Source: Zhaonella formicivorans
GTDB lineage: Bacteria; Bacillota; DUOV01; Zhaonellaceae
NCBI RefSeq assembly: GCF_004353525.1
Contig: NZ_CP085524.1
Span: 372,001-436,000, forward strand
DNA length: 64,000 nucleotides
Reading direction: 5' to 3'
Each line of letters starts with the position of its first letter. The first letter of the stretch is position 1. The translations under genes and the position numbers were made by a program. This document shows, one piece after another, positions 31,925 to 61,704 of this stretch. The notes beneath the pieces are model-generated. The model saw only the letters and a program-made list of their open reading frames with translations. It did no database searches and was not told where the DNA came from.

Positions 31925-33316
31925 GTGAGCAAATATTTTACCCGGATGGGTGACGGTTCCGGCGTTTATTTAAGCGCCGAAGATATAAGGTTTGATTTGG
32001 AGGAAGGAACCAGAGACGCTGCGGAACGAGGTAAAATACCTGAACTGACTAAAGAAGAATTAGACCATTTGTTTGAAATTATTACTATGCCCGGAAATGT
32101 GGTGGGTGTGGAAAGAGGTAATGAAGTGGTAACCACTTCCGATTCGGGAGGCTGTAAAATTACATACCACGCTAATATTGCCATCGACAGATCCGCTGCA
32201 GTTCTGATTCATGAAAAAGTGTTGGGGGCAGATTCCCTTGATCTGGGGCATATCGATTACAGCTACAAAGCTGTTAAACCGGTTCTTCATGATGAAGCTG
32301 CGCTAATGGAGCTCACTCAGCTCAATTCCGTTATGCCTGTGCTATATGGTTCCATGCCCAATTTGGGGTTATACACCAAGCCTGACGGACCTGTAGATAA
32401 CTGGTCCGAGCTCTTGCCTATGGGAAAAATTGCTGAGGCCAGGGCTGCACAGGAGGAGGCCGTGGAATATGCAGTCAAGGATATAGTCTATGTAGCCGGT
32501 GGGATGCACGCAGCGGGCGCTGACGGCATGAATATTGATACATGCGGTGCTTCGGGGGACGCTGATGTGCTGGCAGCCTTAAAGGCCATAGAAATTATTA
32601 AACAAAAATATCCTGACTTGGGAATTGAAATGGGCATGGCCGGAGAATTTATCATCGGTATGCATGGTCAACTGGAGTACGACGGTGTGCGTTTAGCCGG
32701 TTTATATCCCCATATGCAGGTTAAGCTTGCTGAAAAGGCAGGCGCTAATATTTTCGGAGCTGTAATTAATACCAACAGCAATATGTCATTCCCTTGGAAC
32801 CTGGCCAGGACGGTGACTTTTATCAAAGCTTGTACGGAAGCGGCCAGCATACCCGTTCATGTAAATGTGGGCATGGGTGTAGGCGCAATCCCAATGAATG
32901 AAGTACCTCCTGTAGATGCAGTTACCAGAGCGGATAAAGCTCTGGTGGAAATAGGCAAAGCGGACGGGTTGTAGATTGGCGTAGGCGATCCTTTCGGTTT
33001 AGAAGTTGCTCATGAGCTTGCCGCAGGCATGGGCGGAATTCGCACTGCCGGAGATCTGGTATTGCGTATGCAACTGTCTAAAGGCATGAAGATTCATGAG
33101 GCTAAAAAATATGTGGCTGAAAAATTGGGTGTGACCCCTATGGACTTAAGCGACTGCGCCATCATGAGAGAGATAAGGGAGGATCTTAATCTTGGGCGTC
33201 CTATGCCCCCTGATGGCGCTGCTAAAGGTATAGAAGCGAAATGTCGCATTGCCCACGTCCTTAATATCAAGATTAATTCCGTCGAGCGTTTTTTAGTAAA
33301 AGCAGGTCTAAAATAA
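31925..33316 (+). CDS. mtbB: Dimethylamine methyltransferase MtbB with in-frame amber (pyrrolysine)
   Basis: 463 residues if TAG at 32972-32974 is read through. GTG 31925 follows TTAGGAGGG. Codon 350 is TAG in ADGL-TAG-IGVGDPFGLEVA; the frame continues for 113 sense codons that keep family sequence (GMGGIRTAGDLVLRMQL) up to TAA. In archaeal MtbB (about 467 residues) the pyrrolysine codon lies at 356. The enzyme moves a methyl from dimethylamine to a corrinoid protein, and the pyrrolysine ring activates the substrate. Without pyrrolysine the product would be a 349-residue fragment. pylTSBCD is not in this window. Confidence 0.92.
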
Positions 33317-34076: not shown

Positions 34077-35564
34077 TTGAGCAGAAGGAACGTATCAGCG
34101 GGAAACGGCATATGTGATGGATTTGGTTTGAGTATCTTCTCCACGGATGCGTTAGACAGAATTCACTGTGCTACGCTGGAGGTTTTGTGGTACGAAGGGA
34201 TAAAAGTATACAGCGACTTGGCCTTGGAAATCTATCACGGCGGGGGATGTACGGTAGACAAAACAAAGCAAAAAGTGTTCATACCGCCCCACGTGGTGGA
34301 GGACTGCATTCGCTCAGCCCCTTCCACCGTGCTTTTAGCTGCCAGGGATCCAGCCAACGATGTAGTTTTGGATGGTACCAGGGTAAATTTTTGTAACTTT
34401 AGCAAAGGCGTTATGGTAGTTGACCCGTATACCGGTGAAATAAGGAAATCTACCAAGCAGGATGAAGCAAATGTAGCCGTACTGGTAGATTATTTAGACC
34501 AGTATGATGTTTTGGATGTGGCTGTTGAAGCCAGGGATACAGACCCCAAAACTGCTAACCTGGAATGTTACGAAGCAATGGTTTCCAATTCGACGAAGCA
34601 CTGCACCCAATCACCCCACAGTATAGCGGAGGCAGAAAAGCTCATCCAATTGGCTGCTATTGTGGCTGGTGGCAGGGAAAAGCTTAGGCAAAGACCGATC
34701 ACTTCTGCCACTGTTTGCCCTCAAAGCCCTTTGTCTCTGGCGGAGGAAACATGCGAACCTATTATCGCTTACGCGAGAAACGGCATACCGATGAATGTGC
34801 TGTCCATGGCTATGGCTGGCGGCACCTCACCGGTTACTTTAGCCGGTACTTTGGTCACCCATAATGCGGAAGTACTGAGCGGCATTGTTCTAGCTCAATT
34901 GACAAACAGGGGGACTCCCAATATGTATGGCAGTTCCACCACCATTATGGATTTGAAATTGGCTTCTGCTTCTATTGGATGCCCTGAGTTAGGGATGATC
35001 AGTGCTGCCGTTTGTAAGCTGGCGCAATACTATAAAATCCCCAGTTATGTAGCGGGAACCTAGACTGACAGTAAATTAGGCGATGAGCAGGCGGGTCACG
35101 AAAAAACGCTGACTATGCTCTTGGCCGCGTTAGCAGGCGCTAATATGATTTACGGCCTAGGCATGATTGAGTTGGGGATGACCCTGGATTTTGGGCAGTT
35201 GGTGGTTGACAATGAGATTGCCCGGATGGTGCGAAAGGTGCTTGCGGGGATTCCTGTAAACGATGAGACTCTGGCAGTGGATGTAATCCGCAGGGTAGGT
35301 ACCGGCGGACACTTCCTGATGGAGGAACATACTTTAAAACACATGAAAACAGTACAGTCCCAAAGCACCCTGTTTGACCGCCAAACCAGGCAAAATTGGA
35401 TTGCTAAAGGGGGAAAAGACTTAGCAGCCAGAGCTAATGAAACAGCTAGGTATATTTTGGAAAATCATGAGCCGCAGCCTCTACCGATTGAAGTAGCTAA
35501 AAAAATAAGGGAAAGCATTGAAGAAACCGAGCGGGAATGGGGAATCAGGAAGGGGGAAAAATGA
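34077..35564 (+). CDS. mttB: Trimethylamine methyltransferase MttB with in-frame amber (pyrrolysine)
   Basis: 495 residues with read-through, the length of archaeal MttB. TTG 34077 follows AGGAGAGG (GTG 34068 is an alternative). Codon 329 is TAG at 35061-35063, in YVAGT-TAG-TDSKLGDEQAG, against 334 in the archaeal enzyme. The frame stays open for 166 codons after it, with family sequence such as LTMLLAALAGANMIYG. Demethylates trimethylamine and passes the methyl to the adjacent corrinoid protein. It is clearly homologous to the non-pyrrolysine copy at 25174. Confidence 0.92.
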
Positions 35565-47789: not shown

Positions 47790-49013
47790 CTAGAAGTGTG
47801 CCAATACTTCTTTTTTGGTTTGAACCAATATTTTACCGTTTTTAATCACGAAAGCTTTAGTTGCCTGGGTGACAATGGCTTCGCTGGGAGATGCGGCATC
47901 AAAGATAACTAAGTCAGCTTTACAGCCCGCTTCGATGCCGTACCTTTCCAATCTCAAAGCCTTTGCAGGGTTATAAGTACCCATTTCAAAAACTTTGTTA
48001 AGCTCAGAAGTAGTACCCATTTGCAATACCTGGGCGGTAATCAGGGCTTCCTCCAGCATATCAGCGTTGCCGAAAGGACGGAAAGGATCTCTGATATTGT
48101 CGGAAGCGTAAGCTACGTTTACACCTGCCGTTAACAGTTCCCGGACGCGGGTGACGCCACGGCGAATAGGTTGCTTATCGGAACGGCCCATCAGGTATAG
48201 ATTGCAGGAGGGAAGGGTGATGATATGCATGCCGGCATCTCTAACCTTGGCTATAACCCGGGCCGCTATTTCATCGGAAACAGCGGATAATGAGCAACAA
48301 TGGCCGGCGGTCACTTTGCCTTCCATGCCTTCCCGCATAGTTTTCTCTGCCACATATTCAAGTGTGGCTACGGTAGGTTCGTCTGTTTCATCCACATGCA
48401 GGTCGATCAGCAGATTGTTCTGTTTTGCTAAGGCGAAGATGCTGTCCACCATTCCTTTTGAGTTTTCACACAAGGTAGGAGCGCCTCCGTATAGGCTAGC
48501 GCCATGCAGAGGGGCTTGTTCCAACAGTTTGAGGTTTGTTTCATCTAGCGCTTGGCCTTCGATTGTAGCCATAGCAACGATTTGCAGGTCAACTAAATGT
48601 GCTACCTCTTTTTTAAGCTCACCTAGCGCTTCAATTGCCATCAAGCCAATTTTATCATCCACGGAAATATGAGTGCGAATAGCAGTGGTTCCATTTTGCA
48701 CAGCCATTTCCACTACTTTTTTTGCTCTGTTTTTAATATCATCTTTCGTAATGCGGGAATAACGGCTTTTAAAAGTCATGATGGCTTCTTCCAAAGTACA
48801 AACTTCAGTACCTTCCAGAGTCAAAACCTTTTCCAGGTGGGTATGGGCATCTACAAAGCCCGGAGATACCAACCTGCCGTTGGCTTCGATTACTTGCGCA
48901 GCTTCAGCGTTAATACAGGGTTTAACCTCGCTGATGTTGCCCCCTTGAATGGCAATGTCCACTAGTTCCGACCGATCGGGTAGTTTTGCCTGTCGAATAA
49001 TTAAATCCAGCAT
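47790..49013 (-). CDS. codA: Cytosine deaminase / amidohydrolase
   Basis: 407 residues from ATG 49013 (GGGGGGAAAA before it on the minus strand). Amidohydrolase motifs: GFVDAHTHLEK (metal HxH), LHVDETDEPT, VTAGHCCSLSAV and VAYASDNIRDPFRP (metal Asp), matching the CodA order. It deaminates cytosine, or related pyrimidines and pterins in some members; isocytosine and pterin deaminase activity is known in this family. Stands alone, but a nucleoside-type transporter operon lies 8 kb on, so salvage of a related base is conceivable. Confidence 0.85.
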   Translation of the reverse strand: MLDLIIRQAKLPDRSELVDIAIQGGNISEVKPCINAEAAQVIEANGRLVSPGFVDAHTHLEKVLTLEGTEVCTLEEAIMTFKSRYSRITKDDIKNRAKKVVEMAVQNGTTAIRTHISVDDKIGLMAIEALGELKKEVAHLVDLQIVAMATIEGQALDETNLKLLEQAPLHGASLYGGAPTLCENSKGMVDSIFALAKQNNLLIDLHVDETDEPTVATLEYVAEKTMREGMEGKVTAGHCCSLSAVSDEIAARVIAKVRDAGMHIITLPSCNLYLMGRSDKQPIRRGVTRVRELLTAGVNVAYASDNIRDPFRPFGNADMLEEALITAQVLQMGTTSELNKVFEMGTYNPAKALRLERYGIEAGCKADLVIFDAASPSEAIVTQATKAFVIKNGKILVQTKKEVLAHF

Positions 49014-49214
49014 AGTTTTTCCCCCCGTCTGTAAATGTAGATTAATCCTAATTTTTAGCTTAAACTGAAGTTGGAGTTTTGTCAAAAATTTTTATTAATA
49101 TCAAAAATAGACAGAGTTCATGGCTTTTACGCTGCTCGCCCGGAATCATCCTGTACATTGATACAGTTTTAAAAAGACATACTACCAATAGCATTCAAAA
49201 GGAGGAAAGGCAAA

Positions 49215-52771: not shown

Positions 52772-53764
52772 TTAGCAGGAACCACGCAGCACCAGCTCTA
52801 CCGGGAGAAGGACTTTCCGAATTGGTGCAGTTGGATTGTTGATTTGCTCCAGAAGTATGGTAGCTGCAGTTTTACCGATCTGGAAATTTGGCGCCCGCAG
52901 GGTAGTTAGTCCGGGGGTAGTATATTCGCTCATAGGAATATCATCGAAGCCGACAATAGCCACATCTTCCGGGATCTTCAAGCCCCTGTCCTGCGCGCAC
53001 TTCATGGCGCCGATGGCCATGATATCATTAAAGGCAAATACTGCTGTAGGCACTTTTTCTGCAGCTAATATTTCTGTCATAGCCAAGCGCCCGCTTTCCA
53101 GTGAATCGTAAGAACCGTGGCAGATCAATTTTTTATCCAGCTCTAAATCATATTCAGCCAAAATATTTTTGATTGCTTTTAAGCGCCTGATTGTAACCAG
53201 CATTTTGGGGTTTCCCGGAATTACCCCGATGCGCTTATGACCTTGATGAATAAGATGTTCGATGGCCATCCTGACTCCGGTGATGTCGTCCACGTAAATA
53301 CAGTTGAAAGTATCCTGCCCCGGAATGTATTCTATAGCAGCGATAGGTATTTTAATTTTGTTTAATGCTTTTTCATAACCTTCCTGGAAGGCGCCGGAGC
53401 CGGCAAGGATCAATCCATCAACCCGCCTTTTCAGTATGTTTTCAATAATGCTTTCCTGGCGGGAAATACTTTCGTAAGAGCTGGAAATAGTTAGATTGTA
53501 ACCGTTTCCGGCTAAAACGCTTTCGGCACCTTCAGCCAATTGGCCGAAATAGGGGTTGCGCAGAGTAGGAACTACCAAAGCGATGGTATTTGTCCTTCCT
53601 GTGAGTAAGCCTTGGGCAATGGGGTTTGGGGCATAATTCATTTCCCGTACTATTTTTAGCACTTTTTCGCGGGTAGACGGGCGAACCAGGTGGGGTTGAT
53701 TGATAGCCCTGGAGACCGTAGCGATAGATACCCCTGCCTTTTCCGCTATCTGCTTAATGTCCAC
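52772..53764 (-). CDS. LacI-family transcriptional repressor
   Basis: 330 residues, ATG 53764. N-terminal helix-turn-helix IKQIAEKAGVSIATVSRAIN and hinge PNPIAQGLLTGRTNTIALVVP, then a periplasmic-binding-protein-like sensor domain with IPEDVAIVGFDDIPMSEYTTPGLTTL. It is divergent from the operon at 53975, and a palindrome of LacI type lies in the shared region and again inside the operon. The ligand is probably the substrate or product of that operon. Confidence 0.9.
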   Translation of the reverse strand: MDIKQIAEKAGVSIATVSRAINQPHLVRPSTREKVLKIVREMNYAPNPIAQGLLTGRTNTIALVVPTLRNPYFGQLAEGAESVLAGNGYNLTISSSYESISRQESIIENILKRRVDGLILAGSGAFQEGYEKALNKIKIPIAAIEYIPGQDTFNCIYVDDITGVRMAIEHLIHQGHKRIGVIPGNPKMLVTIRRLKAIKNILAEYDLELDKKLICHGSYDSLESGRLAMTEILAAEKVPTAVFAFNDIMAIGAMKCAQDRGLKIPEDVAIVGFDDIPMSEYTTPGLTTLRAPNFQIGKTAATILLEQINNPTAPIRKVLLPVELVLRGSC

Positions 53765-53809
53765 AAAATCACTTCCCGTCGCTTGTCTTCAGTTCAAATT
53801 ATACCAGGA

Positions 53810-53825
53810 GCGAATACGTTTTCAT
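53810..53825. promoter_or_regulatory. Weak LacI-type operator candidate near the repressor start
   Basis: On the minus strand ATGAAAACGTATTCGC. Its left half equals that of the operator at 53937, and its centre is CG as usual for LacI operators; the right half is poor. It would allow autoregulation. Confidence 0.35.
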
Positions 53826-53936
53826 AGTCGCAGTTCGTTACGGCGTTAAATTGAGGCATAAAAATAAATATTTTTAAAAAATTTAGGCGAATAGGAGGTT
53901 TTTTTTGAATAACGGAGAATACCTATAGCAAACAAA

Positions 53937-53952
53937 ATGAAAAGGTTTACAT
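53937..53952. promoter_or_regulatory. LacI-type operator candidate upstream of the Mch-like operon
   Basis: ATGAAAAGGTTTACAT, an imperfect 16-bp palindrome with GG centre that matches the 55742 site at 13 of 16 positions. It is 23 bases before the first gene's start. Confidence 0.55.
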
Positions 53953-53974
53953 GTTAGCAAAAGGGGAGTGGGAC

Positions 53975-54952
53975 TTGAAAACCGCCAGTTACAATTTCAG
54001 TTTGAATAGAAATGCGGTACGGCTGCTTAAAGAGAAAGTTATACCCCATGCTCAGGCGTTGGACGTGGGAGTAATTAAGCTGGCCAATGGTTCTACTGTT
54101 TTGGATATGGGGATTAATTTCCCCGGAGGTTGGCTGGCAGGCAAGTATTTTGTCGAGGTAGGACTGGGGGGATTAGGACAGCTCTCATTTGGTAAAATGC
54201 AGCTTAAAAACTATATGGTACCTTCAGTGCGGGTACAGGTTACTTATCCTGCTGTTGCCGAAATGGCAGCCCATGTGGCTTATTGGAAAATACGCTACAA
54301 AGGGCAAAACGTAGTTATTTCAGGGCCAATTCGTTCCATTACGGGGACTGATATTTTCGCCCGGGCGGTAGACTACAGGGATACCGCTGCCGGGGAGGCA
54401 GTGGCCTTATTGCAGACTACAGAACTCCCGGATGAAGGGTTAGCTGATTATTTGGCTAAAGAAGCGGGAATTTTGCCTGAAAACTTATACATTTTGGCGG
54501 CTAAAACAGCTACCATTGTTGGGGCCATTCAGGTTTGTGCCCGCAATGTGGAGCAAACTTTGCCAACTTTGTATGACCGGGGTTTCCCCATGGAATATGT
54601 GGTGCAGGCAAATGCGGTAGCTCCGGTTGTCTCTGTTGTAGATGACGAAGAGATTGCATATGGTCGCGTTAACGACTGCTTAATTTATGGCCAGGAGACC
54701 AATGTTTTTGTGCGCTGCAGCGATGAAGAGATTATCCGGATGTTGAAAGATATACCTTTCAGCAAAAATGAAGATGTCTACGGAACACAGTTCCAGGAAT
54801 TATTTGCTTTATGTAACAAGGACTGGGCGCAAGTGCCCAGGGATTGGGATGCACCATGCAAGGTAAATTTCTATAACTTGGTTACGGGAAACACCTTTAG
54901 CACCGGTAAAATCGGCTATGAAGTTTTGGAAAAATCCTTCTTGGGCAATTAG
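53975..54952 (+). CDS. Methenyltetrahydromethanopterin cyclohydrolase-like protein (full length)
   Basis: 325 residues from TTG 53975 (AAGGGGAG six bases before; ATG 53951 overlaps the operator). It follows Mch along its length: GSTVLDMGINFPGGWLAGK, VEVGLGGLGQLSFG, VISGPIRSITG, LYILAAKTATIVGAIQVCAR, and VQANAVAPVVSVVDDEEIAYGRVNDCLIYG, ending TTG-like NLVTGNTFSTGKIGYEVL. Mch opens the methenyl ring of a tetrahydropterin C1 carrier in methanogens and methylotrophs. No other tetrahydromethanopterin genes are here, so the carrier or reaction may differ. First gene of an operon with a paralogue. Confidence 0.8.
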   Translation: MKTASYNFSLNRNAVRLLKEKVIPHAQALDVGVIKLANGSTVLDMGINFPGGWLAGKYFVEVGLGGLGQLSFGKMQLKNYMVPSVRVQVTYPAVAEMAAHVAYWKIRYKGQNVVISGPIRSITGTDIFARAVDYRDTAAGEAVALLQTTELPDEGLADYLAKEAGILPENLYILAAKTATIVGAIQVCARNVEQTLPTLYDRGFPMEYVVQANAVAPVVSVVDDEEIAYGRVNDCLIYGQETNVFVRCSDEEIIRMLKDIPFSKNEDVYGTQFQELFALCNKDWAQVPRDWDAPCKVNFYNLVTGNTFSTGKIGYEVLEKSFLGN

Positions 54953-54963
54953 GAGGTGGTAGA

Positions 54964-55722
54964 ATGTCGACGATTTTGCTTAAAGCTTTAGAGCAGTCTC
55001 ATTGTCAAGGTTTTAACGTTATTCATTTTGCGCAAGATTTTAAGGTGCTTGATATGGGGGTAGAGGCGCAGGGGGGTTGGTCTGCCGGTAAAGTTTTAGT
55101 CGAAGCCGGCATTGAAGGGTTAGGCTATGTAAACTACGGCGAATTTTATTTAAATGGTTTTGCCTTACCAACGGTGGATGTATATTATGATAATCCAACT
55201 TTGACAGGATTGCCCTTGACCTGCCAGTTGGAGGGGCAAGTCCTGTTTACCTTTAAAAATAGCAATTTTAGTTATGCTGAAGTGAATCAGCTGCCGGATA
55301 AGGATCTGCTAGAGAAAATGGTGGAATTTGCGCAGGCAGGAGGACAGCAGTCCTTTTTAGTAATAACAAAACCGACTTGCTTGGTAGCTGCTGTTTACAG
55401 CGCTGCCCGGGCGGTGCCGCTGGTTTTGGAAGAGCTCTTGGGCAACGGTCTGAAAAGAGAGGAAATTATGTGGGCCTGGGGGACCAGTCCCCTCCCCCCT
55501 ATCACCGATGACTTAAACGTTATGGCAATTCGGAAAAGTGCAGCACTGCAATATGGAGCAGTCACCAGTTTTTGGGTTAGAGCTGAGGAGTGGAGGATTA
55601 GGGAAACGTTAGATAAAGCAGTACCTTATGGTGAAATTCGTATCCACAGTTTAAGTGATGCCAAGACTTTGGTTAAAGGCTCCGTGGACAAAGCAAGGCT
55701 ACGGGAACTTTTACTAAGCTGA
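54964..55722 (+). CDS. Mch-like paralogue, shortened
   Basis: 252 residues, ATG 54964 after TTAGGAGGTGG, 11 bases behind the first Mch-like gene. Shared features: FKVLDMGVEAQGGWSAGKV, VEAGIEGLGYVNYGEF, LVITKPTCLVAAVYSAARAV and WAWGTSPLPPITDDLNV. Residues that would follow in Mch are partly missing between about 85 and 100 and at the C-terminal end. Adjacent long and short copies suggest a heteromeric enzyme. No function can be assigned from sequence alone. Confidence 0.7.
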   Translation: MSTILLKALEQSHCQGFNVIHFAQDFKVLDMGVEAQGGWSAGKVLVEAGIEGLGYVNYGEFYLNGFALPTVDVYYDNPTLTGLPLTCQLEGQVLFTFKNSNFSYAEVNQLPDKDLLEKMVEFAQAGGQQSFLVITKPTCLVAAVYSAARAVPLVLEELLGNGLKREEIMWAWGTSPLPPITDDLNVMAIRKSAALQYGAVTSFWVRAEEWRIRETLDKAVPYGEIRIHSLSDAKTLVKGSVDKARLRELLLS

Positions 55723-55741
55723 TTTTATTTTTTTCTTTAAT

Positions 55742-55757
55742 TTGTAAAGGTTTACAA
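55742..55757. promoter_or_regulatory. LacI-type operator candidate inside the operon
   Basis: TTGTAAAGGTTTACAA: perfect inverted 7-base arms around GG, 22 bases before the flavoprotein start. It may control an internal promoter for the second half of the operon. Confidence 0.6.
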
Positions 55758-55779
55758 GCAGCATTAGGGAGGGCAGTCA

Positions 55780-56430
55780 ATGGTAAAAATTCTTGGCGTA
55801 AGCGGCAGCCCCAGAAAAGCCGCTACAGAATACGCCTTAAAACAAGCCCTGGAAGCAGCGGAAGAAGTGCCGGGGGTAACTACGGAATTTATTTCTTTAG
55901 GGGGCAAAAAAATTAACTTTTGTATTCACTGTGACCGTTGCATCAAGGAAGGGGCTATCTCTTGCGTAATTCATAAGGATGATATGAGCAATTTATACCA
56001 GCCTTTTTATGACGCGGATGGTTATATTTTTGCATCTCCTGTTTACGACATGGGCATTACCGGCCAGTTAGCAACGTATTTTAATCGCTTTCGTCCGGTT
56101 TACACCTTGTTAAAACAAAATCCCAGGTATTTTAGTTCCAAAGTTGGCGGCGCCATTGCTGTGGGAGGGACTCGTAACGGGGGCCAGGAATGCACCTTAA
56201 ACAACATCTTGGGTTTTTACTACACTAACGGCATACTGGCGGTCAGCGGCGGAATGGGAGTATACCACGGGGCTTGCGTTTGGAGTCAGGATAGAAAGGC
56301 CCAAGGGGCGGAAGAAGATCTGTTGGGCATTAAAAATGTGCGCTTTATCGGCAAGAGAGTGGCAGAAACAGCAGTTATGGTTAAAGCCGGGGTTATGGCC
56401 CTGCAAAGTGAAACTAACCGGGCTGGATAG
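55780..56430 (+). CDS. Iron-sulfur flavoprotein (NADPH-dependent FMN reductase fold)
   Basis: 216 residues, ATG 55780 after GGGAGGG. Flavodoxin-like start ILGVSGSPRKAATEYALKQA (FMN phosphate loop) and a compact cysteine cluster C-x2-C-x2-C-x7-C in CIHCDRCIKEGAISC (about residues 50-64), the pattern of the 4Fe-4S iron-sulfur flavoproteins of anaerobes. It would pass electrons one or two at a time between ferredoxin and a substrate. In this operon it may reduce or oxidise the compound handled by the Mch-like proteins. Confidence 0.82.
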   Translation: MVKILGVSGSPRKAATEYALKQALEAAEEVPGVTTEFISLGGKKINFCIHCDRCIKEGAISCVIHKDDMSNLYQPFYDADGYIFASPVYDMGITGQLATYFNRFRPVYTLLKQNPRYFSSKVGGAIAVGGTRNGGQECTLNNILGFYYTNGILAVSGGMGVYHGACVWSQDRKAQGAEEDLLGIKNVRFIGKRVAETAVMVKAGVMALQSETNRAG

Positions 56431-56493
56431 CTTGGTTAAGCGGGCTGAAACAGAGCAAGAGTTAATTACATTACCATAAATGGAGGGAAAAAC

Positions 56494-56859
56494 ATGATTA
56501 AAGAGGATTTGCTGTTAATAAAAAATATGCAGTTTTGGGGAACCCACGGGCATTGGCCTGAGGAAAACAAGTTGGGGCAGAGATTTGTGGTAGATGTAGA
56601 AGTTTCCGTTGATATGCAAAAGATGTGTGAAACCGATGACCTCTCCACTGGACTAAGTTACGTAACAGTCTATGAAATTGTGAAAAAAGTTGTCACGACA
56701 GAAGAGCATAAGCTGGTGCAAAGAATTGCCCAGCGCATTGCTGATGAAGTAATTGCCGCTTACCCCATTAAGCAGATCAGGGTTACAGTTAAAAAACCCT
56801 CGGTGGCGATTGGCGGTATTGTTGATTATGCCGGTTGTTCAATAGTTAGAGAACCTTAA
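56494..56859 (+). CDS. folB: Dihydroneopterin aldolase-like protein (FolB)
   Basis: 121 residues, ATG 56494 after GGAGGG. FolB features: GTHGHWPEENKLGQRFVVDVEV with the active-site Glu, LSYVTVYEIVKKVV, and the catalytic Lys in VTVKKPSVAIGG. FolB cleaves or epimerises 7,8-dihydroneopterin. No folP or folK lies beside it, unlike folate operons, so here it may act on an imported pterin or be a paralogue with another substrate. It is in the same direction as the Mch-like genes. Confidence 0.85.
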   Translation: MIKEDLLLIKNMQFWGTHGHWPEENKLGQRFVVDVEVSVDMQKMCETDDLSTGLSYVTVYEIVKKVVTTEEHKLVQRIAQRIADEVIAAYPIKQIRVTVKKPSVAIGGIVDYAGCSIVREP

Positions 56860-56944
56860 ATAAGATCTGGAGGTGATGGCAGACAGGAATCCCGGTTAAA
56901 AACCAAGAGTATCTTTACAAACCCATTTAAAGGAGGACCTTAAA

Positions 56945-57964
56945 ATGCGAACTTGGCACAAAGTGTTGGCTGTCATGGTGGTTGTGGTGTTCACAATGGG
57001 CTTGGTTGTTGGCTGTGGAAGTAAGGCTGAGACTGGTCAGAAAAACGAGGGCACAGCAACCGGTCAGGAAACTAAATTTAAAGTTGCTCTGTTAACGGAA
57101 GGTGCCGTGAACGATGGCGGTTGGAATGCTGGCGCTTTAAAGAGCCTGAAAATGATTGAAGAACAGTTAGGTGCAGAAATAGCCTATACCGAAAAGGTTC
57201 CCCGGGCGCAGCAGGAACAAGTTCTGCGGACTTACGCCCGTCAAGGTTTTAATGTAATTTTTGGTCATGGGTTCCAGTTCAGCGAGCCAATGCAAACAGT
57301 AGCTAAAGAATTCCCGGAAGTAATATTTATCCCTGTTAATGGCTACGTAAACGGTGACAACTTATTTTCCACCAATTTCAAGTTTGGTGAGTTGGGATAT
57401 TTTACAGGAATGACTGCCGGGCTGATGACTAAATCCAATAAAATTGGCGTTGTGGCAGCTATGGATGCCCCAACTGTTAATGCTGACATTGATACCTTTA
57501 AAGAAGGCGTTAAAAAAGTCAATGAACAGGCAGAAGTAATTGTATCTTATGTTGGCAGTTGGGAGGATATACCTAAAGCTAAAGAAGCTGCCAGGGCTCA
57601 GCTGTCCAAAAATGTAGATGTGGTCTTAGTAATCGGGAATGCTTTCAGCATTGGTGTTTTCCAGGCAGCCCAGGATGCCGGTGCCTATGCAATAGGCTGG
57701 GTTGATGACCAGAGCTCTATGGCTCCTGATACTGTAATCACCAGCGGAATGCAGGATGTCTCCAGTTTATACCTGCAAATGGCCCAGCTGGCCAAAGATG
57801 GGAAGTTAGAGCCAGGTAAAACTTATACATTCGGCATGAAGGATAATAATGCCCAGTCGTTAGCTCCTTTTAGCAGCAAGGTTCCCAAAGAGGTACAAGA
57901 CCAAGTACAGCAAGCCATTCAGGATTACAAGGATGGCAAGCTTGTCTTAAATTTGAAATATTAG
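56945..57964 (+). CDS. BMP-family lipoprotein, nucleoside ABC transporter binding protein
   Basis: 339 residues, ATG 56945 after AAAGGAGGACC. Signal peptide with lipobox VVGCG (Cys near 24). BMP/PnrA features: VALLTEGAVNDGGWNAGALKS, IFGHGFQFSEPM, NGYVNGDNLFSTNFKFGE, AIGWVDDQSSMAPDTVITSG. Members bind purine nucleosides. First gene of a complete transporter set; the hairpin after it would raise its level above that of the permeases. Confidence 0.9.
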   Translation: MRTWHKVLAVMVVVVFTMGLVVGCGSKAETGQKNEGTATGQETKFKVALLTEGAVNDGGWNAGALKSLKMIEEQLGAEIAYTEKVPRAQQEQVLRTYARQGFNVIFGHGFQFSEPMQTVAKEFPEVIFIPVNGYVNGDNLFSTNFKFGELGYFTGMTAGLMTKSNKIGVVAAMDAPTVNADIDTFKEGVKKVNEQAEVIVSYVGSWEDIPKAKEAARAQLSKNVDVVLVIGNAFSIGVFQAAQDAGAYAIGWVDDQSSMAPDTVITSGMQDVSSLYLQMAQLAKDGKLEPGKTYTFGMKDNNAQSLAPFSSKVPKEVQDQVQQAIQDYKDGKLVLNLKY

Positions 57965-57980
57965 GCATGTGCGGTTGAAT

Positions 57981-58011
57981 GAGGAGTAACCTCTTCATGA
58001 GGTTGCTCCTC
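57981..58011 (+). promoter_or_regulatory. Intercistronic hairpin between binding protein and permease genes
   Basis: GAGGAG-t-AACCTC-ttca-TGAGGTT-g-CTCCTC forms a long stem with one bulge and no T-run. Such hairpins stabilise upstream mRNA or limit read-through, giving excess binding protein. Confidence 0.6.
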
Positions 58012-58075
58012 ACTTCTAAGTATATAAACGGCTCTGTGCTCAAGACGATTAATTGCCGAAGTTAGGAGGGGCAGG

Positions 58076-59179
58076 GTGAAAGCGCGGTTGGACATAAAAA
58101 AGTTTGAAGTAGTTCTCGGATACGTGATCTCCTCAGTTATATCAATAGTGGTTTCCCTGGTGATTTCCGCTGGTGTGCTTTTAGCACAGGGTACCGACCC
58201 TATTAGCGCTTTTACTTATTTATTTCAAGGCGCTTTTGGGGATATAGGTGGTTTTAGCGCCAGCTTGGTCAGCGCTACTCCTCTCATGCTGGCCGGGCTG
58301 GGGATTGCGTTTGCTTTCCGTGCGGGAATTTTTAATATCGGAGCTGAAGGACAGCTATACCTTGGAGCCATGCTGGCTACCTGGGTAGCTACTTTGCCAT
58401 TAGGTTTACCAAAAGTTGTCCATCTTCCCTTAGCCCTTTTAGCAGGTATGGCAGCCGGAGCATTTTGGGCGTTCATACCGAGCTATTTAAAAGTGGCCAA
58501 AGGTTTTAATGAAGTGATCACTACTATTTTAATGAACTATATTGGAGTTTATTTTGTCAACTACAGCGTACATGGATTTTTACAAGAACCGGGCGGGTAT
58601 TTGCCCCAGTCGGCTCCGATAGTTGAAACTGCCCGGTTGCCCAAATTGGTGGCAAATACTGAACTTCATGCCGGGTTGCTGGTCGGGTTAGTAGGAGCGG
58701 TGGTTCTTTACATCCTTTTACAAAAAACCGATTTTGGGTATCAACTGCGCTGTGTGGGCTCTAACCCCGAAGCAGCCCGGACCTCAGGAATGAATGCTAA
58801 ACTAACGCTGATTATAGCTATGCTGGTAAGCGGCGCTTTTGCAGGTTTAGCTGGCACTGCAGAAATTCTTGGTTATCAAAATCTACTGCTGGAGAATTTT
58901 TCACCCAATACAGGTTACGATGCTATTGCCGTCGCTTTACTGGGCAGGTTAAATCCGATGGGTGTGGTCCTGGCTGCAATTTTTTTCGGAGCTCTTCGCA
59001 ATGGAGCCAACATCATGCAGATTATGACGGGAGTTCCGGTAACCATTGTCTATATAATTCAGGCAGTGATTATCTTAAGTGTTTTAGGTTTCTCCACGTG
59101 TAAAATTAAGCTGGGTTTCCTGCTCGAAAGGGGGAATAAAGTTGCTCTCCACAGTGTTAAAAATGTTAATCGAGCCTGA
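58076..59179 (+). CDS. Nucleoside ABC transporter permease 1
   Basis: 367 residues, GTG 58076 after TTAGGAGGGG. BPD_transp_2-type permease with eight or more hydrophobic segments; AFRAGIFNIGAEGQLYLGAM and NPEAARTSGMNAK are family-typical. Pairs with the next gene, whose start lies 38 bases inside its 3' end. Forms the membrane channel of the BMP transporter. Confidence 0.9.
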   Translation: MKARLDIKKFEVVLGYVISSVISIVVSLVISAGVLLAQGTDPISAFTYLFQGAFGDIGGFSASLVSATPLMLAGLGIAFAFRAGIFNIGAEGQLYLGAMLATWVATLPLGLPKVVHLPLALLAGMAAGAFWAFIPSYLKVAKGFNEVITTILMNYIGVYFVNYSVHGFLQEPGGYLPQSAPIVETARLPKLVANTELHAGLLVGLVGAVVLYILLQKTDFGYQLRCVGSNPEAARTSGMNAKLTLIIAMLVSGAFAGLAGTAEILGYQNLLLENFSPNTGYDAIAVALLGRLNPMGVVLAAIFFGALRNGANIMQIMTGVPVTIVYIIQAVIILSVLGFSTCKIKLGFLLERGNKVALHSVKNVNRA

Positions 59180-60140
59180 TTTCCTGGCTGCGGCTATACG
59201 CTTAACAACTCCTCTGCTTCTAGCTGCCTTGGGAGGTTTGTTCAGCGAAAGATCGGGAGTGCTCAATCTTGGCTTAGAAGGCATGATGCTAATGGGTGCT
59301 TTTTTTGGTTATCTTGGGGCGCTTTACACCCAGAATGTGGTAGTGGGTTTGGTAATTGCAGCTCTTGCAGGAATGGTTTTGGCTTTAATCCACGCCATTA
59401 TGAGCGTCACTGTGAAGGTAGACCAAATTGTAACTGCTGTGGGCATCAATATGCTGGCTTTAGGCATCACTAGTACTGCTTTCAGGGTGATTTTTGGCAA
59501 TGACTTGCAGCAGATTGAAAGCCCCGGATTAAGAACCGTGAACTTTGGGCCGCTAAGTGAATTGCCTTTTGTGGGTCCCATTCTTTTTAACCAGATGTCT
59601 ATTGTTTATTTTGCTTTCCTTTTAATCCCGGTTGTACATTTTATCCTGTTTCACACCCACTGGGGACTAAAAATCCGCGCAACAGGCGAACATCCTAAGG
59701 CTGTGGATACTGTCGGGACTAGTGTTTACACAGTTCGCTACTGGTCTGTAATCATTAGCGGGTTACTGGCCGGGCTAGGCGGCGCTGCAGTTACCTTGAC
59801 CGGAATAAACACCTTTTATGACAATATTACCGCTGGCCGGGGTTTTATAGCCTTTGCCGCTATTGTTTTTGGAAAGTGGAATCCGGTTGGAACCGCATTG
59901 GCGACTCTGTTATTCGGAGCGGGGGATGCTTTTCAACTGCGTTTACAGGCCCTGGGATTCAAGCTGCCCTACCAGTTCTTCCTCATGCTTCCTTATGTGT
60001 TGACACTGCTTGTCCTAGTCTTCTTTATGGGTCCCTCCAAAGGTCCGGTCGCCAGTGGCCAGGCTTATGTTAAAGGCGGTTCCAAATCCAAGGTGAGACA
60101 GTCTAAATTAAAGCTGCTCAAGCGGGAGGTGAACCCCTAG
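59142..60140 (+). CDS. Nucleoside ABC transporter permease 2
   Basis: 332 residues, TTG 59142 after AAAGGGGGAA. Characteristic GLFSERSGVLNLGLEGMMLMGAF and GEHPKAVDTVGTSVY. Overlaps permease 1 by 38 bases and the ATPase gene by one base, so the three are translationally coupled. Confidence 0.9.
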   Translation: MLSTVLKMLIEPDFLAAAIRLTTPLLLAALGGLFSERSGVLNLGLEGMMLMGAFFGYLGALYTQNVVVGLVIAALAGMVLALIHAIMSVTVKVDQIVTAVGINMLALGITSTAFRVIFGNDLQQIESPGLRTVNFGPLSELPFVGPILFNQMSIVYFAFLLIPVVHFILFHTHWGLKIRATGEHPKAVDTVGTSVYTVRYWSVIISGLLAGLGGAAVTLTGINTFYDNITAGRGFIAFAAIVFGKWNPVGTALATLLFGAGDAFQLRLQALGFKLPYQFFLMLPYVLTLLVLVFFMGPSKGPVASGQAYVKGGSKSKVRQSKLKLLKREVNP

Positions 60141-61654
60141 TGTCTGAGTTTATCTTGGAAATGAAAGGTGTGCGCAAGGAGTTCCCTGGTTTGGTGGCTA
60201 ATGACAATGTCAATTTGCAGGTAAAAAAGGGAGAGATCCATGCCCTGCTCGGAGAAAACGGTGCTGGCAAGTCAACCTTGATGAATATCCTCTACGGCCT
60301 TTATCAGGCTGATGCAGGCCAGATCCTGTATAAAGGGCAGCAGGTAGAGGTTTCCAGCCCAAGGAAAGCAATTGAAATGGGTATAGGAATGGTACACCAG
60401 CACTTTATGCTTATTCCGGCGCTTACCGTTGCCGAAAATATGATTCTAGGCATGCAGGAGGGAAAAAACCCTCTGCTCAATCTCAAAGAAGCTGAAAAGC
60501 GCATCCGGGAATTAGGAAAAAAATTCGGTTTGGTGGTTGATCCCACGGCAGTAGTTTGGCAGCTTTCAGTGGGGGAACAGCAGCGGGTGGAAATTCTGAA
60601 AGCGCTGTACCGGGGAGCAGAAATTTTAATCTTGGATGAACCTACCGCAGTATTGACTCCCCAGGAAACCGATGAGCTGTTTGCTATTTTACGCTCTTTG
60701 ACCCAGCAAGGTTTAACAATCATTTTTATTAGCCATAAGCTGAATGAAGTTAAAGCGATCAGTGACCGGGTAACCATTTTGCAGCGGGGAAGAGTGGTTA
60801 AAACCGTTAATACTAAAGACACGGATCAGCAGGAATTAGCCCGGATGATGGTTGGCAGGGAGGTGCTTTTAAAAGCGGAAAAGGCCCCCGCCAAGCCGGG
60901 TGACAAGGTCTTGGAGGTCAAGGATCTGGAAGTAAAAAACGACAAGAACATATCAGCTGTCAAGGGAGTATCCTTTGAGATTAAAGCTGGTGAAATTTTT
61001 GGCCTCGCCGGAGTGGATGGCAATGGGCAATCGGAACTGATCGAGGCTTTAACGGGTTTAAGACAGGCTGTCTCGGGTCAGGTGTATTACGCCGGGGAAA
61101 ACGTAACTAATAAACCCCCGCGGTATTTGATAGAGAAAGGCATGGCTCATATTCCGGAAGACCGGCATTTAAGGGGAATTATACTGAATATGTCCATAAA
61201 AGAAAATATGATCATGGAGACTTTTTACCAGGAGCCTTTCAGCAAGCACCATATTTTGCAGCAACATGTTATCGCCGACTTCAGTAATTCTTTAATTGAG
61301 GAATATGATATTCGCACTACCTCCAATGAACTTCCGGTGGGCAACCTGTCGGGTGGAAACCAACAAAAGGTTGTCTTGGCCAGGATGTTACAACGTTCTC
61401 CCAACCTACTTATCCTGGTCCATCCTACCAGAGGACTGGATGTGGGGGCTTCAGAATATATCCATAAGCGGATTATAGCAGAACGGGATAAAGGATGTGC
61501 CGTTTTGTTGGTATCCACAGAGCTAGATGAGATTTTATCTTTAAGTGACCGGATTGGTGTCATTTACGAAGGTGTAATGATGGGCATTATCAGGCAGGAA
61601 GAAGCTGATGTGAATGAAATTGGCCTAATGATGGCCGGGGCAAAAAGACTATAA
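60140..61654 (+). CDS. Nucleoside ABC transporter ATPase (two fused domains)
   Basis: 504 residues with two ABC cassettes. First: GENGAGKSTL, LSVGEQQRVEIL, LILDEPTAVLTP. Second: degenerate Walker A LAGVDGNGQSEL, signature LSGGNQQKVVLA, LLILVHPTRGLD. The degenerate second site is normal for sugar/nucleoside importers of this type. GTG start overlaps the preceding stop codon. Last gene of the operon before a terminator. Confidence 0.93.
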   Translation: MSEFILEMKGVRKEFPGLVANDNVNLQVKKGEIHALLGENGAGKSTLMNILYGLYQADAGQILYKGQQVEVSSPRKAIEMGIGMVHQHFMLIPALTVAENMILGMQEGKNPLLNLKEAEKRIRELGKKFGLVVDPTAVVWQLSVGEQQRVEILKALYRGAEILILDEPTAVLTPQETDELFAILRSLTQQGLTIIFISHKLNEVKAISDRVTILQRGRVVKTVNTKDTDQQELARMMVGREVLLKAEKAPAKPGDKVLEVKDLEVKNDKNISAVKGVSFEIKAGEIFGLAGVDGNGQSELIEALTGLRQAVSGQVYYAGENVTNKPPRYLIEKGMAHIPEDRHLRGIILNMSIKENMIMETFYQEPFSKHHILQQHVIADFSNSLIEEYDIRTTSNELPVGNLSGGNQQKVVLARMLQRSPNLLILVHPTRGLDVGASEYIHKRIIAERDKGCAVLLVSTELDEILSLSDRIGVIYEGVMMGIIRQEEADVNEIGLMMAGAKRL

Positions 61655-61672: not shown

Positions 61673-61704
61673 GCACTCTGAGGTTCTTCAGGGTGCTCTT
61701 TTAA
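61673..61704 (+). terminator. Terminator of the Mch-like/transporter operon
   Basis: GCACTCTGA-ggttct-TCAGGGTGC followed by TCTTTTAATTTTT, 18 bases after the ATPase stop codon. Confidence 0.75.

Follow-up and report, generated by a model that had tools for sequence, protein, structure and literature searches.

We describe here a gene cluster that would serve the uptake and anaerobic breakdown of a pteridine in the bacterium Zhaonella formicivorans. The window analyzed is a stretch of 64,000 nucleotides (contig NZ_CP085524.1, positions 372,001 to 436,000) from a genome of 3.31 Mb in a single contig. At its positions 52,772 to 61,654 it carries a gene for a LacI-family repressor and, divergent from it, eight same-strand genes that encode two homologues of the methenyl-tetrahydromethanopterin (H4MPT) cyclohydrolase Mch (Mch1 and Mch2), an Fe-S flavoprotein, a homologue of the aldolase FolB, and a four-part importer of the BMP type. 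Judged from the protein and operator sequences and from a comparison with related loci, it is rather probable that these genes form a LacI-controlled regulon whose substrate is a neopterin-, biopterin- or folate-derived pterin, or a lumazine. A bolder proposal, which we regard as possible but short of probable, is that evolution has co-opted the Mch fold, in the form of a catalytic/dead pair, for opening the pyrazine ring of deaminated dihydropteridines, in an undescribed anaerobic pathway that is widespread in Bacillota, gut species included, and that employs a re-tuned FolB with a characteristic Gln (FolB-Q) and a BMP importer adapted to pteridines.

An initial annotation had grouped the nine genes and suggested that they take up and process a pterin- or purine-derived compound. 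All nine were confirmed in place, with strong family matches, and the suggestion gained support: a substrate of the pterin type is favored over standard nucleosides by a Glu-to-Gln replacement in FolB, by the loss of ribose-contacting residues in the importer lipoprotein Bmp, and by a RibD_C-type reductase whose occurrence tracks that of non-canonical Mch. Moreover, a pterin-binding protein (PF00809) is encoded next to Mch in one locus (L112). Together with Mch, FolB and the RibD_C-type reductase, it makes four pteridine-linked families that meet here, which would point to pteridines.

FolB and the importer lipoprotein

The cluster FolB scores 106.7 bits against TIGR00525, above the equivalog cutoff of 72. 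The catalytic and binding residues of FolB comprise Glu22, Tyr54, Lys100 and Glu74 (PMC11328599); in the Escherichia coli enzyme, the N3-H and 2-amino groups of the pterin are held by Glu73, the counterpart of Glu74 and the residue that matters most for binding (PMC4176595). Like known dihydroneopterin aldolases, the cluster FolBs keep the equivalents of the catalytic Glu22, Tyr54 and Lys100, but they differ in having Gln at the pterin-anchoring Glu74 position, where it is invariant in the six cluster sequences aligned. Gln at this position would therefore fit a 2-oxo ring with N3-H, i.e., a lumazine-type ring, and the substrate of the cluster FolB appears to be a deaminated, 2-oxo dihydropteridine. 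Urate oxidase, a related T-fold enzyme, also holds a 2-oxo ring with Gln.

The genome encodes two FolB proteins, FolB-Q and a FolB-FolK fusion that keeps the Glu and whose gene lies beside folP and folE; given this canonical protein, folate synthesis was rejected as the main role of the cluster FolB. Among the 30 genomes with FolB loci listed, nine have FolB-Q, and all nine carry non-canonical Mch (see below); 20 of the 21 genomes with only the Glu form carry no Mch.

A double-domain FolB occurs in the window's own family (genome G076, L104:6997-7725). Both of its halves carry Gln in place of the pterin-anchoring Glu, and its gene adjoins a BMP importer, a flavoprotein gene and a gene similar to aldehyde ferredoxin oxidoreductase (AOR); a related LacI is encoded on the same contig.

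The importer is complete, with Bmp (PF02608, 219.6 bits), two BPD_transp_2 permeases and a double-ABC ATPase, the same four parts as in nucleoside importers of the BMP/PnrA type. Nucleoside-binding relatives of Bmp share Asp225 and Lys242 (BmpA numbering), which contact the ribose (PMC13325309). The window lipoprotein differs from them, with Val and Gln at these two positions as placed through an alignment with Lbp and a spacing of 17 residues. None of the 13 importer-linked lipoproteins aligned has the Lys242 equivalent, and the first stacking aromatic residue (the Phe27 position of BmpA) is mostly kept as Trp, including in the window protein. With both ribose contacts lost, the case for an ordinary nucleoside importer is weakened.

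The Mch pair and its genomic neighborhood

Mch1 is a clear member of its family, with 263 bits against PF02289 (cutoff 25) and 234.7 against TIGR03120 (cutoff 228.8), and is about 36% identical to Mch of M. kandleri (1qlm). Its predicted structure (predicted local distance difference test score, pLDDT, 92.6) matched Mch structures only in Foldseek searches, with a TMt of 0.94 to 1qlm and 4gvq. R198 and E201 of Mch1 align with R183 and E186 of A. fulgidus Mch, which we take to be the catalytic residues under these numbers; the position of the catalytic Glu used for the alignment is marked by a Glu-to-Gln difference between the sequences of 4gvq and 4gvr. Mch2 is short and divergent and passes PF02289 only (85 bits). 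Its predicted structure (pLDDT 90.9) likewise matches Mch structures only, with a TMq of about 0.83. As the catalytic Arg/Glu pair and further motifs, including GPxR, are lost in every copy of Mch2, this protein is probably a non-catalytic partner with an Mch fold, and the two proteins presumably form a complex.

Searches of the host genome for Ftr (PF01913) gave no match, and those for other Mch proteins found none beyond Mch1 and Mch2; lacking Ftr and a canonical Mch, the host was ruled out as a user of the H4MPT one-carbon pathway. In a tree of 42 Mch proteins, two groups separated with 100/100 support: group (a), with Mch of archaea, of fhc operons and of related types, and group (b), with 30 non-canonical rows, Mch1 among them. 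Fourteen of the 15 rows located near a BMP-type importer fall in group (b). The single exception is a canonical-clade Mch of genome G155 (L045), which adjoins a divergent BMP importer. The "fhc operon" label derives from gene layout and sizes around those Mch genes rather than from family scans of their neighbors. Canonical-clade Mch genes lie in operon-like arrays in several Bacillota families (L040, L041, L042, L050 and L052), and the layout was read as that of fhc/H4MPT operons. Genome G237 has a canonical, fhc-linked Mch as well as a cluster of the window type, so the two are not redundant. Thus, Mch1 shares the fold and the catalytic Arg and Glu of the H4MPT-type enzyme (TIGR03120/PF02289; 1qlm, 4gvq and 4fio), but differs from it by its separate clade, its apparently dead paralogue partner, its linkage to importer, FolB and deaminase genes, and a host without the H4MPT pathway.

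The initial annotation withstood its own test of co-occurrence: transporter and Mch-like genes are found together in other genomes as well, and we regard their linkage as well supported. In many Bacillota, relatives of mch1 adjoin genes for the same importer, flavoprotein, FolB and COG0402 deaminases, and also for the RibD_C-type reductase, molybdenum hydroxylases, dihydropyrimidinase/YgeY-type hydrolases and aldehyde enzymes. Locus L034 of genome G237 has the order LacI, Mch1, Mch2, flavoprotein, FolB, Bmp, permeases, ATPase and a COG0402 amidohydrolase; L035 (G371) has this gene set plus an iron-containing alcohol dehydrogenase (Fe-ADH); and L033 (G047), within the stretch examined, has LacI, Mch1, Mch2, flavoprotein, FolB, Bmp, an amidohydrolase, AOR and Fe-ADH. 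In Marasmitruncus massiliensis (L054), Mch1 is accompanied by a homologue of an amidohydrolase found at 47.8 kb of the window, and by UbiD, a molybdenum hydroxylase and an aldehyde dehydrogenase. Two gut metagenome-assembled genomes, of Oscillibacter (L055) and of a member of Lachnospiraceae (L056), combine the importer, a deaminase, the flavoprotein and Mch1-Mch2 with XdhABC, PreA-like and dihydropyrimidinase-like genes; the former adds a RibD_C-type reductase and a YgeY-family hydrolase that exceeds its curated cutoff, and the latter a FolB. A second locus of G076 (L109) holds Mch, the importer, E1/E2 genes, RibD_C-type reductases and deaminases. Finally, a sister type of non-canonical Mch flanks pyruvate dehydrogenase (PDH)-like E1/E2 genes with a short-chain dehydrogenase/reductase gene (L038, L046, L047 and L113).

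Two further types of loci were seen. In Pseudoflavonifractor and relatives (L057-L060), what is conserved is just the Mch1-Mch2 pair, in most cases together with a UTRA regulator, and no FolB or deaminase is encoded nearby. Genome G060 has a decaying copy of the system (L051), in which Mch, Bmp, permease and RibD_C-type genes persist as fragments, some of them interrupted by internal stops.

The sample consisted of 399 genomes of the phylum; only three genomes of the host's GTDB class were available. Twenty-five of the 399 have any Mch. Fifteen of these were classed as non-canonical, most of them according to the tree but G163, G060 and G286 according to sequence similarity or context; the other ten are canonical-only. 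The RibD_C-type reductase was present in 13 of the 399 genomes, including ten of the 15 with non-canonical Mch and none of the ten canonical-only ones (P ~3e-14, hypergeometric, with genomes treated as independent; the true significance is lower because several genomes share a family). The co-occurrence spans four families (f1, f15, f47 and f79).

Gene organization, regulation and host context

The genes from mch1 to the ATPase gene lie on one strand, with intergenic gaps of -38 to +111 bp (Table 1). A palindromic, operator-like 14-mer occurs there in two perfect copies, at 53938 and 55743. In a scan of the whole genome with the consensus ATGWAAAVSTTTWCAT, the 16-mer at 53937 was the only perfect match. 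The same motif is found near related lacI genes, perfect in L033, L034 and L035 and with one mismatch in L104; the LacI proteins of these loci are close homologues of the window repressor (352-384 bits in the first three, 378 bits in L104). Because the Mch pair and the flavoprotein/FolB/importer block both carry copies of one operator, they are probably one LacI regulon. The annotated start of Mch1 overlaps operator 1, and a start near 53975 (TTG behind GGGGAG) seems likelier.

The flavoprotein has a PF03358 domain and a compact four-cysteine motif, CxxCxxCx7C in the window copy, and in these features it resembles the Isf-type iron-sulfur flavoproteins, of which it may be a relative. It is 44-67% identical to 11 cluster copies, all of which have the cysteine motif with slightly variable spacing.

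Table 1. Features of the cluster and its putative partner gene (window coordinates)
Feature	Position	Strand	Families and remarks
LacI-family repressor, divergent from the cluster	52772..53764	-	PF00356 and PF13377
Operator 1, ATGAAAAGGTTTACAT, ahead of mch1	53937..53952	.	Sole perfect ATGWAAAVSTTTWCAT match in the genome
Mch1, Mch-family enzyme, proposed catalytic subunit	53951..54952	+	PF02289, TIGR03120
Mch2, shortened Mch paralogue, proposed partner subunit	54964..55722	+	PF02289
Operator 2, TTGTAAAGGTTTACAA, between mch2 and the flavoprotein gene	55742..55757	.	
Fe-S flavoprotein, FMN_red family	55780..56430	+	PF03358
FolB-Q	56494..56859	+	TIGR00525
Bmp lipoprotein, substrate-binding protein of the importer	56945..57964	+	PF02608
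Importer permease A	58076..59179	+	PF02653 (BPD_transp_2)
Importer permease B	59142..60140	+	PF02653 (BPD_transp_2)
Importer ATPase, two ABC domains	60140..61654	+	PF00005 in two stretches
Terminator-like hairpin, closes the unit ahead of accD	61673..61696	+	
COG0402 amidohydrolase ("cytosine deaminase"-like), probable unlinked partner	47790..49085	-	PF07969/PF01979

The initial annotation had treated the Mch and transporter genes as one regulon, for which the shared operators now argue, and had named a cytosine deaminase at 47.8 kb as a possible partner. That amidohydrolase is below every NCBIfam cytosine deaminase cutoff (332.8 against 438 and 283 against 403), and a true cytosine deaminase (CodA) was ruled out on these scores. 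Its partnership is backed by homologues that adjoin Mch in two genomes (48% identical in L044 and 45% in L054). We propose that this COG0402 enzyme is a 2-amino-pteridine deaminase that acts with the cluster. Overall, the host encodes at least eight molybdenum hydroxylases of the xanthine dehydrogenase type and about ten COG0402 amidohydrolases, several of them within ~300 kb of the window, and therefore looks like a specialist for N-heterocycles.

Elsewhere in the window, Rfam models detected the pyrrolysine insertion elements PYLIS_2 (mtbB) and PYLIS_3 (mttB), at 32972-33071 and 35061-35160, respectively. The window thus probably encodes pyrrolysine-containing methylamine methyltransferases.

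Proposed pathway, alternatives and implications

In the pathway that we envisage, the Bmp importer would take the pteridine in, and the Fe-S flavoprotein, in other genomes also the RibD_C-type reductase, would set the dihydro state of its ring. The COG0402 amidohydrolase would strip the 2-amino group, and FolB-Q could then cut the C6 polyhydroxyalkyl side chain from the dihydrolumazine, with release of a small aldehyde that would pass to the AOR, Fe-ADH or aldehyde dehydrogenase encoded in related clusters. In several relatives, a xanthine dehydrogenase-type enzyme may oxidize C7 before ring opening. By hypothesis, and by analogy with the action of Mch on methenyl-H4MPT, Mch1/Mch2 would be the ring-opening hydrolase, working on the pyrazine ring through water addition and C-N cleavage. 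By general chemistry, a 7-oxo-lumazine would be hydrolyzed to 5,6-diaminouracil and a 2-oxo acid, and pyrimidine breakdown might follow. Such products would account for two sets of genes found in relatives: PDH-like E1/E2 genes, located between Mch pairs in some genomes, and PreA-like, dihydropyrimidinase-like and YgeY genes, which occur in others. The sequence of the reactions, the assignment of a reductive step to the flavoprotein and the compound cleaved by the aldolase are inferred.

Several observations weigh against this pteridine pathway. The window cluster lacks the molybdenum hydroxylase, deaminase, RibD_C-type reductase and pyrimidine-degrading genes of its relatives; a search of the host genome for RibD_C-type relatives of the L048 protein came up empty, and no operator palindrome was seen upstream of the 47.8-kb deaminase gene. 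In L057-L060, there is no importer near the Mch pair. The residues of FolB and Bmp were assigned a substrate through alignments rather than ligand-bound structures. In addition, the YgeY and Xdh genes of the gut loci belong to purine/urate catabolism as well.

Because of these shared genes, a purine or purine-like heterocycle (of the xanthine, urate or 7-alkyl purine type) has to be considered as the substrate. Mch1/Mch2 would then open the imidazole ring, which contains an N-CH=N unit similar to the N5-CH-N10 bridge hydrolyzed by Mch, and the pyrimidine part would enter a YgeY-type route. Purines are frequent substrates of BMP importers and COG0402 deaminases, the gut loci offer XdhABC, a YgeY-family hydrolase above its cutoff, and dihydropyrimidinase-like and PreA-like genes, and a 2-oxo purine, e.g., xanthine, would be compatible with the Gln of FolB as well. 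Nevertheless, we consider a purine substrate unlikely: FolB retains the residues for cleavage of a pterin side chain, a reaction that is meaningless on a purine, the ribose contacts of Bmp are lost, and FolB, the RibD_C-type reductase, Mch and the PF00809 protein all indicate pteridines.

An imported pterin might instead be salvaged, i.e., trimmed by FolB to 6-hydroxymethyl-dihydropterin and used for folate synthesis. FolB makes this folate precursor in the standard pathway, and the host has folE, folP and the FolB-FolK fusion; however, the canonical FolB is then already supplied, the Glu-to-Gln change should weaken the binding of the 2-amino pterins that folate requires, and the deaminases, molybdenum hydroxylases, aldehyde enzymes and pyrimidine hydrolases of related clusters are degradative. 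This makes salvage quite improbable. We regard as very improbable the degradation of a flavin, deazaflavin or 8-ribityllumazine (2-oxo already), imported as in BMP-family riboflavin uptake. TpN38(b) (4iil), presumably the riboflavin-binding RfuA, is among the PDB relatives of the lipoprotein, and the 2,4-dioxo rings of flavin type would fit the Gln of FolB, but the deaminases that recur in the clusters would be needless, and the chemistry of FolB concerns the carbon side chain carried by C6 rather than N-ribityl groups. That the Mch pair is an ordinary methenyl-H4MPT or methenyl-tetrahydrofolate cyclohydrolase, with the importer and FolB as chance neighbors, is likewise very improbable in spite of the narrow pass of Mch1 over the TIGR03120 equivalog cutoff and its two retained catalytic residues, given the host without Ftr, the clade apart from H4MPT-linked Mch, the presence of both types in G237, and a linkage that recurs across many families.

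The proposed pteridine pathway can be compared with two known systems. Variovorax sp. F1 degrades folic acid aerobically with carboxypeptidase G and a pterin deaminase (PMC9513972). The likeness lies in a cyclic-amidine deaminase of the cytosine deaminase-like type that acts on a pterin and gives 2-oxo products; the differences are that only these two enzymes are described there, whereas the clusters reported here have an importer, an aldolase, the Mch pair and a flavoprotein in anaerobic hosts, and that the window cluster has no carboxypeptidase G. Gut versions of the cluster share YgeY-family, XdhABC, PreA-like and dihydropyrimidinase-like genes with anaerobic purine/urate catabolism (YgeY, SsnA, Xdh and dihydropyrimidinase). 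The YgeY/SsnA/Xdh set of the latter is absent from the window cluster and partly present in the gut relatives L055/L056. To our knowledge, these purine systems use no Mch, FolB or RibD_C-type proteins. A literature search, with many subscription papers outside its reach, found no genetic account of anaerobic pterin catabolism, and one on Mch in Firmicutes and pterin catabolism genes found nothing relevant except the Variovorax paper (PMC9513972).

The pterins of folates, biopterin and neopterin are made everywhere by hosts and microbes, and in the searchable literature the bacterial genes for their breakdown cover first steps in aerobes only (PMC9513972). Gene content and conserved residues suggest that a gene set common to many anaerobic bacteria, gut species among them, probably imports and dismantles pterins. 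If true, anaerobic pterin breakdown would have a gene set that can be tested, also in gut bacteria that are in culture, and automatic annotations that assign these genes to H4MPT metabolism, to folate synthesis or to nucleoside uptake would be corrected. The finding would also give a second function to a one-carbon enzyme family whose fold was previously known only from methane-related one-carbon metabolism.

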